Below are positions 42,078 to 58,549 of a stretch of DNA of 64,000 nt, in pieces. Every line of letters begins with the position of its first letter. Position 1 is the stretch's first letter. The notes beneath the pieces are model-generated. The model was not told where the DNA came from. It was given only the letters and a program-made list of their open reading frames with translations, and did not search any database. Origin of the DNA: Arthrobacter saudimassiliensis (lineage in GTDB: Bacteria > Actinomycetota > Actinomycetes > Actinomycetales > Micrococcaceae); the NCBI GenBank assembly GCA_900016675.1, contig LN483070.1, positions 496,001 to 560,000 on the forward strand, written 5' to 3'. Position numbers and translations under genes: made by a program.

Positions 42078-42329
42078 GTGCCCGAGTCGAAGCCCCGCAA
42101 GAAGCCGGTCCCGGCGAAGGCAGACCGCAAGCCGGCTGCCGAGCCCGGGCCCAACCCCGTCTGGTTCAAGCCGGTCATGTTCGGGCTCATGCTGATCGGG
42201 CTGGTGTGGATTTTGGTGTTCTACATTTCCGAGGGCCGCTACCCGGTGCCGGCCTTGGGATCCGGCAACATCCTGGCCGGATTCGGCATTGCGATCGCCG
42301 GCTTCCTCATGACCACGCGCTGGCGCTGA
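42078..42329 (+). CDS. crgA: CrgA: cell-division membrane protein
   Basis: 83 aa from GTG 42078, with AGGAGGA upstream. A basic N terminus (PESKPRKKPVPAKADRK) precedes two membrane helices (PVMFGLMLIGLVWILVFYI and NILAGFGIAIAGFLMTTRW) separated by a short loop, exactly the CrgA pattern. CrgA recruits wall-synthesis and division proteins (FtsZ, FtsQ, PBPs) at the septum in actinobacteria. Divergent from the sortase gene, ended by a hairpin. Confidence 0.93.
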   Translation: MPESKPRKKPVPAKADRKPAAEPGPNPVWFKPVMFGLMLIGLVWILVFYISEGRYPVPALGSGNILAGFGIAIAGFLMTTRWR

Positions 42330-42343
42330 TCCGCCCGCCCGCC

Positions 42344-42373
42344 GATGCCCGTCTCCCTGCGGAGACGGGCATC
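42344..42373 (+). terminator. Rho-independent terminator of crgA
   Basis: 13-bp perfect stem GATGCCCGTCTCC / GGAGACGGGCATC, loop CTGC, followed by GCCGTTT; 14 nt after the crgA stop. Confidence 0.85.
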
Positions 42374-42421
42374 GCCGTTTAACCGTGGGCCCGGACTTCT
42401 GTGCACACCATGTGCACGGAG

Positions 42422-42761
42422 TTATCCACAGATGTGTACAGAACTGTGGGATAGAGGAGCAAAATCCCCGCCGTTACAGGGAAGCAGGTTATCCACAGCT
42501 GTGGAATTACATGTGTGTAAGTCTGGACAGCCTCTGGATAACTCCGTTATCCACAGAAATGTGGATAAGTCCTGTGGATACCTGTGCATAGCTGTGGACA
42601 GCCGATCTGCCGCCATCCGGGCCGTTCCACCTCGTCCGGACGGCCCTTCGCCCGGCTGACGCCGTTTACTAGGCGGTCGAACGACACGCCTGTAGTTATT
42701 AACACTGTTGGTAACCCTGTGGATAAGACTTTTTAACGGGTGTGGGTAAGCCTGTGGATGA
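42422..42761. other. DnaA-box array in the crgA-rhomboid gap, candidate origin or DnaA-titration locus
   Basis: Convergent intergenic region holding five perfect TTATCCACA boxes: plus at 42422, 42489, 42547 and minus at 42560-42568, 42718-42726. One-mismatch boxes lie at 42533 (TTATCCAGA), 42573 (GTATCCACA), 42741 (TTACCCACA) and 42753 (TCATCCACA), with weaker ones at 42445, 42500, 42583 and 42593. An AT-rich stretch 42691-42738 contains GTTATTAACAC (42695-42705), 12 bp from the box at 42718. No gene is credible here. Since both flanking genes end at this gap, the boxes are not promoter elements of either. Confidence 0.8.
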
Positions 42762-42767
42762 AGCGGA

Positions 42768-43634
42768 TCAGCCCAGGCCGGCCACGGCGCCGTACAGGGC
42801 GTCCACCCGGATCAGTCCTCCGACGAGGATGACGGCCGTGATGCCGGCGAGCCCCAGGCACTGGACCAGGGTGCGGTGCCTGCCGCGGGGCGCATATCCG
42901 AGGACGAGGGCGCAGGCCAGGCCCGTGACCAGTCCGCCGACGTGCGCCTGCCAGGAAATGTTGGGGTAGAAGAAGCCCAGCGCAAGGTTGATCGCGAGCA
43001 GGACCACGATGCCGCGGATGTCACCGCCCTGCCGCCGCTGCAGGATGAGCAGCGCCCCGAACAGCCCGAAGATGGCCCCCGACGCACCCAGCACCGGAGC
43101 CAGCGGGTTGCCCAGCAGCAGCACTCCGAGGGAGCCGCCCAGGGCCGAGATCAGGTAGAGCGCAATGAACCGGCTGCGTCCGAGCATCGGCTCCATGGCC
43201 CGGCCCAGGAACCACAGCGCGTACAGGTTGAACGCGATGTGCAGCACCGAGCCGGTGGAGTGCAGGAAGGCGGAGGTGAGCACCGTCCACGGTTCGAATC
43301 CGGTGAGCAGCGGCCGGTACCAGAACCGCTCGGTGAAGCCGGGAACCACCCACTGCAGGAGGTAGGCGGAGGCACAGAGCGCCATGAGCGTGTACGTGAC
43401 CACCGGTCGCCCTTCCCGCACCGTTCCGCCTACGGCCGTGCGGTACCTGGGTGCCTGGGCGCCGGCCTGGCGGAAGCAGTCCACGCACTGGATGCCCACA
43501 GGAGCCGGATGCTGGCATTCCGGGCAGGCAGCCCGGCCGCAGCGCTGGCAGCGGATGTAGCTGATCCGGTCAGGGTGCCGCGGGCACACGGGTGCCTGGG
43601 ACGCCGGAGACTCGGCGGGAACTCCATAGGACAT
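42768..43634 (-). CDS. Rhomboid-family intramembrane serine protease with N-terminal zinc ribbon
   Basis: 288 aa. Residues 15-60 carry Cys/His pairs (CPRHPDR, CQRCGRAACPECQ, CVDCFRQ), a B-box/zinc-ribbon-like module. Six membrane helices follow; catalytic Ser is in VLGASGAIFGLFG and His in SWQAHVGGL; HIAFNLYALWFLG gives the oxyanion-loop His/Asn. It cleaves membrane proteins within the bilayer. The zinc-ribbon plus rhomboid fusion is common in actinobacteria. Substrate unknown. Its 3' end borders the DnaA-box array. Confidence 0.94.
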   Translation of the reverse strand: MSYGVPAESPASQAPVCPRHPDRISYIRCQRCGRAACPECQHPAPVGIQCVDCFRQAGAQAPRYRTAVGGTVREGRPVVTYTLMALCASAYLLQWVVPGFTERFWYRPLLTGFEPWTVLTSAFLHSTGSVLHIAFNLYALWFLGRAMEPMLGRSRFIALYLISALGGSLGVLLLGNPLAPVLGASGAIFGLFGALLILQRRQGGDIRGIVVLLAINLALGFFYPNISWQAHVGGLVTGLACALVLGYAPRGRHRTLVQCLGLAGITAVILVGGLIRVDALYGAVAGLG

Positions 43635-55562: not shown

Positions 55563-56079
55563 TGCAGGGTGCCGCCTTTCGCAACATACGACTCAGTACG
55601 GTTTCGGTACTTCTCAGGATGGGCGGGGGACCGCCGCAGCGGCACGGGGCAGTCCCCGGACCGAATGACAACAATACCCCGCTCACAGCTTAGCTCCAGC
55701 GGACGGTACCTGCACCGGCGGAAGCCGCCGGCTTCGGGGTCCTGGATCGGCTTGGATTCGAGTCCGCGAGCTGGCTGGCAGAGGGAACTTGTTATTTGGT
55801 GGAGCCGGATTTCTTAAGATCCGTAGTGTTAATAACTTCTGTGGAAACTGTGGATAACCCCGGCCGGCGGCGCTGCCGCACCGATCCGGCCTGTGGAGAA
55901 CGTGTGGACCTGCTGCTGCCGCGGCGGGCCGGGCCTGTGGGGAAGATTTCGCGTAGTTCGCCGGTCCACAGCGGAACCGCTTTAACCACGGGTTATGCAC
56001 CGGGTTATCCACAGCCTTGTCCACAAATGTTAATTTCGAGCCCCTGCGGGGCTCCACCCCGGCCTTCCGGCCGGGCCCG
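55563..56079. other. oriC: dnaN-dnaA intergenic region, canonical oriC position
   Basis: 517 bp without a gene. Perfect boxes: TGTGGATAA at 55849-55857 (minus), TTATCCACA at 56005-56013 and actinobacterial TTGTCCACA at 56017-56025 (plus). Near-boxes: 55840, 55892 (TTCTCCACA), 55936, 55962 and TTATGCACC at 55993. The AT-rich tract 55790-55840 includes GTGTTAATAAC (55826-55836), 12 bp from the 55849 box. Gene context makes this the default replication origin, although its box density is lower than the 42.4-kb array. Confidence 0.8.
56038..56075 (-). terminator. Tandem hairpins after dnaA
   Basis: GAGCCCC-TGC-GGGGCTC (56038-56054) and CCCGGCC-TTCC-GGCCGGG (56058-56075), directly after the dnaA stop. 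They would limit read-through from dnaA into the origin and dnaN. Confidence 0.7.
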
Positions 56080-57501: not shown

Positions 57502-57973
57502 GCAAACCTCTCATGACGCACCCGTTCGGATGCCGTCGATGCTACTTGGCAGCCGCACCGGCTGCCGGCCTTCATCCACAGGGTTATGCACAGAAGTGGA
57601 TAAAAATGGCCCGTGCCCAGACTAGAGGATGATCCGCCCCGGGGGTAGCTGGAAATCCGGGGATCGGGGGCGATGGGACCGTCCTCACACGGGTGCGCCG
57701 CCGCCGTCGGGAGGGTGGCTTTCTCCACAGGTGTTGATAAGGTTGTTCATCCCTGTGGACATCCCTCGGTTTGACTGGTCAGGGCTGCTCCTCTAACGTG
57801 GGATAGTCCTTTGTGTCTGCTGCTTGCGCTCATGCATGCCCAGCCGGGGTTCTGGAAACTAGGGATCCAGGGTCCGGGTGAGCCGCGGCGGATACATGAA
57901 ATACGCGCCGCTTGTTCTTCCCCCTTGTTGCAGCAAGCAGGGCGCATCTTCCGATCGTCTTGGAGTAACTACC
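57502..57973. promoter_or_regulatory. dnaA / rpmH divergent regulatory region with DnaA-like boxes
   Basis: 472 bp. One-mismatch DnaA boxes at 57572 (TCATCCACA), 57584 (TTATGCACA), 57595-57603 (TTATCCACT on minus), 57721 (TTCTCCACA) and 57732-57740 (TTATCAACA on minus); a weaker one at 57754. They flank the dnaA 5' region and fit DnaA autoregulation. No perfect box is present. No credible small gene seen. Confidence 0.6.
57771..57799 (+). promoter_or_regulatory. Predicted rpmH promoter
   Basis: -35 TTGACT (57771-57776) and -10 TAACGT (57794-57799) with an ideal 17-bp spacer, giving a leader of about 165 nt before rpmH. The position fits the strong promoter expected for the ribosomal protein/rnpA operon. 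Confidence 0.55.
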
Positions 57974-58171: not shown

Positions 58172-58549
58172 ATGCTGCCTCAGCGGAACCGGGTGCGGAC
58201 GTCGACCGACTTCACGAACACCGTACGTTCCGGTGCCCGCAGCGGGCGCCGGAACGTAGTTCTATACGCGGTCGCCAACGGCGGCGGCCCCACGCGGGTG
58301 GGCTTCATTGTTGCCCGCAATGTGGGGAACGCCGTGACCCGAAACCTCGTTAAGAGGAGACTGAGGGAAGCGGCCGCCCGTGAGATCTCCGTACGCCCGT
58401 CCGGGCTGGACGTCGTGGTTCGGGCGCTGCCGGCATCGGCATCGGCCTCATGGCAGCAGCTGTCCGCCGATTTCGGTTCCGCCCTGGAAACGTGCAGGAA
58501 GAAACTGGCGCAGGATGACCGCAGGCAGGGGATGGTGAAGCAGCAATGA
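58172..58549 (+). CDS. rnpA: Ribonuclease P protein component
   Basis: 125 aa. Begins [14 protein letters not shown]; the central RNPB-binding basic motif is [19 protein letters not shown]. Partners the RNase P RNA to mature tRNA 5' ends. ATGA overlap with yidD. Confidence 0.96.

Follow-up and report, generated by a model that had tools for sequence, protein, structure and literature searches.

What does a dense cluster of DnaA boxes do in a gap where two genes end, some 13 kb from dnaA? The question is raised by a 64,000-nucleotide stretch of the Arthrobacter saudimassiliensis genome (GCA_900016675.1, contig LN483070.1, positions 496,001 to 560,000; hereafter the window, whose numbering we use unless stated), in which the boxes lie between crgA and a rhomboid protease gene. 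A first-pass annotation had proposed that the cluster is either the real replication origin (oriC) or the second half of a split one, or else a locus that titrates DnaA, like datA, or reactivates it, like the DnaA-reactivating sequences (DARS); control of transcription was thought unlikely. Our analysis favors a non-origin DnaA control site that lies 3′ of crgA, near oriC, and is conserved through the class Actinomycetes, a reading to which we assign a probability of about 0.72.

The Box Cluster and Its Repeated Unit

Five perfect TTATCCACA boxes and four one-mismatch boxes lie within 340 bp (42422–42761), exactly the numbers first reported, and the cluster is ∼13.3 kb from dnaA. The gene on the left is crgA (42078–42329, plus strand), which encodes an 83-residue CrgA (Pfam PF06781, E 5e-29) and whose 3′ end anchors the element. 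On the right, the rhomboid protease gene (42768–43634, minus strand; PF01694, E 2.7e-32) adjoins the cluster with its own 3′ end. The Pfam matches confirm both genes, which converge on the gap as described in the first-pass annotation. The whole window holds 21 box matches with at most one mismatch where 2.25 are expected, and the maximum among 100 shuffles was 6. In the genome (3,552,112 bases in three contigs, 99% complete) there are 13 perfect boxes against 8 for a reversed-pattern control; five are in the crgA–rhomboid gap, two in the dnaN–dnaA gap, and two at C1:597833-598088. These counts indicate that the box is clustered at the crgA gap without being enriched genome-wide.

The cluster opens with two perfect plus-strand boxes (42422–42430 and 42489–42497), followed by a clean form of the dyad that is the conserved companion of the boxes (AATTACATGTGTGTAA, 42505–42520, found by a TTACAN4TGTAA search) and a one-mismatch box on the minus strand (42533–42541). 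Next stands a triad on the plus strand (42547–42581), in which a perfect rightward box I at 42547 faces a perfect leftward box II at 42560 and a one-mismatch leftward box III at 42573, with gaps of 4 and 4 bp. This triad is the top match in the genome to R1, our sequence-only model of the module (E 1.3e-5). A second plus-strand R1 match (42677–42727, E 1.2e-4) comprises a degenerate dyad at ∼42680–42694, box I TTATTAACA at 42696, which has the GTTATTAACA form, a degenerate box II TGTTGGTAA at 42706, and a perfect minus-strand box III TGTGGATAA at 42718, with gaps of 1 and 3 bp. By sequence, the unit occurs twice in the gap, in diverged copies. Within the second copy falls the AT-rich tract that had been noted before, GTTATTAAC at 42695–42703, and two further one-mismatch boxes at 42741 and 42753 (42741–42761, minus strand) complete the cluster. 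Behind crgA and ahead of the boxes, an inverted repeat (42344–42373) was seen by eye and is a possible terminator; it is absent from the list of our consensus scan.

Conservation within the Micrococcaceae

CrgA is present in all 61 genomes of the family, and we took the stretch downstream of crgA from the 60 other genomes, several of these stretches being short at contig ends. The rhomboid gene lies inside 43 of the 61 stretches. At least three boxes with no more than one mismatch occur within 700 bp of its 3′ end in 40 of these 43 genomes (268 boxes), whereas the 5′ side of the same gene yields 0/43 genomes with three or more boxes and 7 boxes in total. The comparison across Micrococcaceae suggested in the first-pass annotation therefore bears out conservation of the boxes, which extends to 23 of the 24 genera whose stretches include the rhomboid gene. 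Many relatives have genes inserted between crgA and the rhomboid gene, with the cluster mostly remaining beside the latter; in this family, the site sits at the rhomboid end of the crgA–rhomboid interval.

Alignment of 41 hand-chosen copies gives a family module of the form GAATTACAnGGGTGTAA - GTTATTAACAC - TGTGGATAA - N4 - TGTGGATAA. The GTTATTAACA segment is itself box-like, and other genera have TTCTCCACA, TTACCCACA, or a similar sequence in its place. The module therefore consists of a dyad, a rightward box I, and leftward boxes II and III, in that order.

A Module 3′ of crgA across the Class Actinomycetes

With R1 at E ≤ 0.01, and with filters stricter than those of the single-genome searches, 119 genomes of the order yielded 56 with a match, and 246 genomes of the class yielded 168. 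Among the best 30 loci of the order, our own family included, 27 have the rhomboid gene and/or crgA nearby and one is at oriC. A draw from the phylum at E ≤ 0.001 gave matches in 17 of 149 genomes, 8 in the class and 9 outside it, the best of the latter at 6e-5. One of our locus sets consists of 40 hand-picked genomes, 34 with R1 matches, and the unbiased counts come instead from an even draw of 98 class genomes (≥90% complete). CrgA was found in 96 of these and missing from 2; one genome was dropped for having less than 150 bp of downstream DNA, which leaves 95, with some sampled and control segments cut by contig ends.

Of the 95 genomes, 72 have strong boxes (TTNTCCACA) in the first 300 bp 3′ of crgA (126 boxes), compared with 1/95 (one box) in the 300 bp upstream of crgA and 0/95 at 400–700 bp downstream. 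These control segments are largely coding rather than matched intergenic DNA, and shuffles serve as a second control. A triad, that is, box I facing tandem boxes II and III in either direction, is present in 85 of the 95 genomes, which come from 31 of the 33 families; 20 rounds of shuffling gave a mean of 0.1 genomes and a maximum of 1. The gaps between boxes I and II and between II and III are 1 and 4 bp in 49 of the 85, 2 and 3 bp in 12, and 3 and 3 bp in 9. The unit is therefore a rightward box I facing leftward tandem boxes II and III, most commonly with gaps of 1 and 4 bp. The dyad, in the form TNACAN4TGTNA, is present in 33 of 95 genomes and 15 families, versus 0.3 in shuffles. In the examples read, the dyad keeps to the box-I side even in modules whose orientation toward crgA is reversed, so that dyad and triad turn together; in part of the genomes, the unit thus includes a dyad of the type ATTACACGCGTGTAAT next to box I.

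We also scanned GTDB contigs with a pattern built from the module itself, which can tell where the module lies but not how frequent it is. The scan returned at least 118 stretches; among the 118 matches listed, 96 include crgA and/or the rhomboid gene at the locus, and 50 carry the module no farther than 150 bp from the crgA 3′ end. Eighty record titles name actinomycetes (Arthrobacter, Kocuria, Amycolatopsis, Gordonia, Mycobacterium, Corynebacterium, and others), bar one. That record (WNZI01000003.1) is titled Vibrio cholerae 35D, but an actinomycete-type crgA and a rhomboid gene flank its module, and it looks mislabelled or contaminated. The other 22 listed matches have neither gene in the locus: two are oriC, and among the remaining 20 one holds dnaB and one rplI. 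This leaves 18 of the 118 in which the module is found without crgA, the rhomboid gene, dnaA, dnaN, dnaB, or rplI, two of them near gyrA/gyrB.

A DnaA-Bound Counterpart in Mycobacteria

A site bound by DnaA is described in mycobacteria between Rv0010c and Rv0011c, the latter of which we take to be crgA. Hicks et al. (2020, PMC7738170; like the other papers cited, drawn on here through the portions available) report the Rv0010c–Rv0011c region as one of five DnaA-bound regions, and chromatin immunoprecipitation sequencing (ChIP-seq) in M. smegmatis recovers homologs of all five. Binding of DnaA to the Rv0010c–Rv0011c site is documented in vitro as well as in vivo, and variants at the site lengthen cells, as dnaA variants do (PMC7738170). 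In the available text, the authors describe the site as having no obvious correspondence in other species and leave titration or nucleotide exchange as options for it (PMC7738170). HigA2 has also been found to bind the mycobacterial site in vitro (PMC11205783, available portion).

The Arthrobacter cluster resembles this site in three respects: it occupies the intergenic DNA immediately 3′ of crgA, it is near oriC, and it contains a palindrome of two DnaA-box-like sequences, namely, boxes I and II of the triad. In three scan records with mycobacterial titles, the module is 19–86 bp from the 3′ end of crgA. Unlike the mycobacterial site as described in the available parts of PMC7738170, the triad module is found class-wide, with the dyad in part of the class, and in A. 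saudimassiliensis the cluster is expanded to nine boxes and stands at a convergent gene pair. The proposal of a titration or reactivation locus is supported on two counts, by boxes kept across family and class and by DnaA binding at the mycobacterial counterpart (PMC7738170).

Of the five DnaA regions known in mycobacteria, four were compared, and each has a counterpart in the A. saudimassiliensis genome. A second box group, between the genes for ribosomal protein L9 (rplI) and DnaB (C1:597833-598088, or L010:17833-18088), matches the mycobacterial site upstream of dnaB. In the window, a DnaA-box region upstream of dnaA (57551–57760, by box matches) is the probable counterpart of the rpmH–dnaA site, the gene beyond it being rnpA (58172–58549, Pfam). 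This region holds a mirrored triad (TCATCCACA, TTATGCACA, AGTGGATAA) that may serve autoregulation of dnaA. We found no description of a DnaA-bound module beside crgA outside mycobacteria in the open-licence papers searched, a set that lacks most subscription papers.

Comparison with DARS, datA, and Titration Clusters

DARS1 and DARS2 of E. coli each set box I against boxes II and III, and the spacing is equal (PMC5742627, available portion); on NC_000913 we measured gaps of 5 and 3 bp in both. The defining activity of DARS is to stimulate the release of ADP from ADP-DnaA. The crgA-side module shares this core of three boxes with box I set against II and III. It differs in its chromosomal position and in its gaps, which are mostly 1 and 4 bp in the class and, in the window, 4 and 4 or 1 and 3 bp. 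Because of these gaps we do not file the module as DARS, although two triads in dnaN–dnaA gaps of the family do have the DARS spacing of 5 and 3 bp. Like E. coli datA, the cluster is a noncoding group of DnaA boxes close to oriC; unlike datA, whose boxes we computed to lie mostly in one direction, it has boxes of mixed orientation. An IHF site is carried by datA (PMC5742627). A role in ATP hydrolysis also belongs to datA.

If the cluster is a non-origin control site, DnaA protomers would assemble head to head on its facing boxes, and the complex would shift either the amount or the nucleotide state of free DnaA, by which initiation and division would be kept in step. A second factor is a candidate for binding the dyad. 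For the mode of action within the control-site reading, DARS-like reactivation is our tentative first choice, suggested by the box topology and by mycobacterial mutants that resemble weakened DnaA. Titration or datA-like inactivation is ranked second and is also possible, given the position by oriC, where the site would be duplicated soon after initiation; other roles take the remainder.

Box clusters have been proposed as DnaA titration sites in Streptomyces (D78) and Bacillus. D78 of Streptomyces coelicolor is reportedly a high-affinity cluster that restrains initiation, and like the crgA-side cluster it consists of DnaA boxes outside oriC. Six genomes of one family (f37), which we presume to be Streptomyces-like, carry a TGTGGATAA-N4-TGTGGATAA pair ∼104–126 kb from crgA, on either strand and with the first box changed in one copy, besides their boxes 3′ of crgA; we take it that this pair is possibly the D78 titration cluster.

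Pure titration, in which the cluster would only absorb DnaA near oriC and leave its nucleotide state unaffected, is the alternative that survives best. It draws on the number of boxes, on their nearness to oriC, and on the D78 precedent. A sink for DnaA would work with boxes in any geometry, but the gaps and orientation are conserved, and dyad and triad invert together in the inverted examples printed. Many genomes, moreover, hold just 1–3 strong boxes, and the mycobacterial variants act like weakened rather than excess DnaA (PMC7738170). We therefore regard pure titration as unlikely.

Observations That Weigh against the Control Site

Several observations weigh against a conserved control site beside crgA. 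In the class draw, the triad is lacking from 10 of 95 genomes, and strong boxes 3′ of crgA are lacking from 23 of 95. The f37 genomes keep 2–4 strong boxes there, but in another order and with printed triad gaps of 3 and 3 bp, and the best R1 match lies away from crgA in all 6 of the f37 genomes compared. In two genomes of family f53, the printed 200 bp 3′ of crgA are free of boxes, and in one f44 genome (G213) crgA is apart while the module remains beside the rhomboid gene. Nor is the site exclusive, as the same kind of triad is found in 14 of 21 dnaN–dnaA gaps and 8 of 11 gaps upstream of dnaA; triads may thus serve the class Actinomycetes as DnaA platforms in general. The likeness to DARS is topological only: the spacing of 5 and 3 bp occurs in none of the 85 best class triads (the mode being 1 and 4 bp, in 49 of 85), and three boxes give the same topology by chance in 1/4 of arrangements. 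For M. tuberculosis variants of the site, the rate of replication initiation was reported as unchanged (PMC7738170, available portion).

The Dyad and Its Possible Reader

TTACAN4TGTAA occurs at three places in the A. saudimassiliensis genome (reversed control, 0): in the cluster, ∼100 bp ahead of a WhiB-family gene, and close to where an unrelated open reading frame begins. The WhiB-side copy is at C1:833981-833994 (L408:1982), and the gene matches Pfam Whib at E 3.3e-26. The dyad also lies upstream of a WhiB-family gene in a genome of the same genus (G032, by Pfam) and in two distant f44 genomes (by sequence signature only). It is possible that one regulator is common to division and replication via the dyad, and a reader protein shared by the promoter of a division regulator and a DnaA site is a lead suggested by these sequences.

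A search for WTTACANNNNTGTAAW in 30 genomes gave matches in 13, eight of them at the crgA/rhomboid module (four f38 genomes, G200, and three f44 genomes), with 4 of 30 in the reversed control. In the four f38 genomes, the sole copy is at the R1 match beside crgA. Other matches argue against a dedicated dyad. In two genomes of our own family (G009 and G048), the sole match is beside a gene with a LacI-type start, which suggests that the WTTACANNNNTGTAAW form also serves other regulators. In G032 the match is at whiB, and in two f22 genomes (G234 and G249) it is at a membrane protein gene.

The dyad of the two f22 genomes is upstream of the membrane protein gene and near acetyltransferase-like genes; a Pfam search with the protein from one of the two loci returned no family. 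We take this setting to be the sepX neighbourhood. WhiA was considered as the reader and is a doubtful candidate, since its published motif, an asymmetric GACAC bound by monomers (PMC3781837, available portion), fits only part of the dyads.

Origin and Transcription as Alternatives

The dnaN–dnaA gap is the probable oriC of A. saudimassiliensis (55780–56079, from box matches and reading of the gap). It contains TAGTGTTAATAAC at 55824–55836, adjoining the tandem boxes TGTGGAAAC-TGTGGATAA at 55840–55857, and further boxes at 55892, 56005, and 56017. The first-pass count for this gap, two perfect boxes plus TTGTCCACA, was as stated, and the box at 55892 adds a TTCTCCACA. We take the gap as oriC because its origin-type unwinding block is kept in the family (by eye, clear in 17 of 21 genomes and drifted in 4 of 21, of genera g12 and g15), and because the putative oriC of Kocuria rhizophila, for which two box arrays, DnaA-trios, and an unwinding element are described, has been placed in the dnaA–dnaN gap (PMC12500396, available portion). 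By eye, the TAGT(AGT)GTTAATAAC block is found in the dnaN–dnaA gap only and no trio repeat by tandem boxes was seen in the crgA-gap cluster, though GTTATTAAC is common to both places.

This sharing is one of the points in favor of the cluster being a second or relocated origin, or one of two oriC halves, brought to the dnaN–dnaA gap by looping. The 9-mer has only two copies genome-wide, one in the cluster and one in the oriC unwinding block; as the reversed control has one, about 1–2 copies are predicted, and it is the shared location rather than rarity that links the two places. In other families with printed modules, a box-like sequence mostly stands where the AT-rich segment is, which weakened GTTATTAAC as an element resembling a DNA unwinding element. 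The cluster also has more perfect boxes than the dnaN–dnaA gap, the dnaA side of the oriC gap bears a similar module (by eye), and weak R1 matches occur at oriC (E 0.14 in our genome and 0.0026 in G031).

The GC-skew comparison suggested in the first-pass annotation was run, and raw skew in the window does turn from negative to positive near 41 kb. Over 384 kb of the genome, however, the sign flips many times. At fourfold degenerate sites, coding-strand skew is negative in every gene group, on both strands and on both sides, and gyrA, gyrB, and the kinase operon are each negative regardless of their direction. With no consistent difference between the arms, skew is unable to place the origin here or to separate the two gaps, and we dropped the turn near 41 kb, a coding effect, as support for an origin. 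Taken with the kept unwinding block by dnaA, the annotated putative K. rhizophila oriC (PMC12500396), and the box-like replacement of the AT-rich segment elsewhere, this makes an origin or half-origin at the cluster improbable, and this part of the first-pass proposal is not supported.

Least probable of all is that DnaA controls transcription of crgA or a neighboring gene from this site, which the first-pass annotation had also held unlikely. In favor of such control, crgA is a division gene, the mycobacterial site is upstream of Rv0010c, and the dyad resembles a regulator site and is seen again ahead of whiB-family genes. Against it, the two genes converge on the gap and no promoter-like sites were seen there, other genes stand between crgA and the rhomboid gene in many relatives, and expression of Rv0010c and Rv0011c is reported as unchanged in dnaA mutants (PMC7738170).

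Implications for Actinomycete Replication Control

A more far-reaching possibility, which we consider doubtful, is that the site is a near-universal DnaA-activity switch beside crgA, a compact, independently built DARS-like platform of a facing pair and a tandem third box, which is tied via the dyad to a regulator also acting at the promoter of a whiB-type division regulator gene. If this were true, replication licensing and septation would be tied to each other, and the site that has been linked to drug tolerance in mycobacteria would be a single instance of something present throughout the class.

The restraint of DnaA in actinomycetes is poorly known, and a defined module beside crgA gives the site an evolutionary ancestry and offers a minimal unit for assays. 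On the control-site reading, the DnaA-bound site of mycobacteria, formerly without a counterpart elsewhere, would now be part of a module found across the class.
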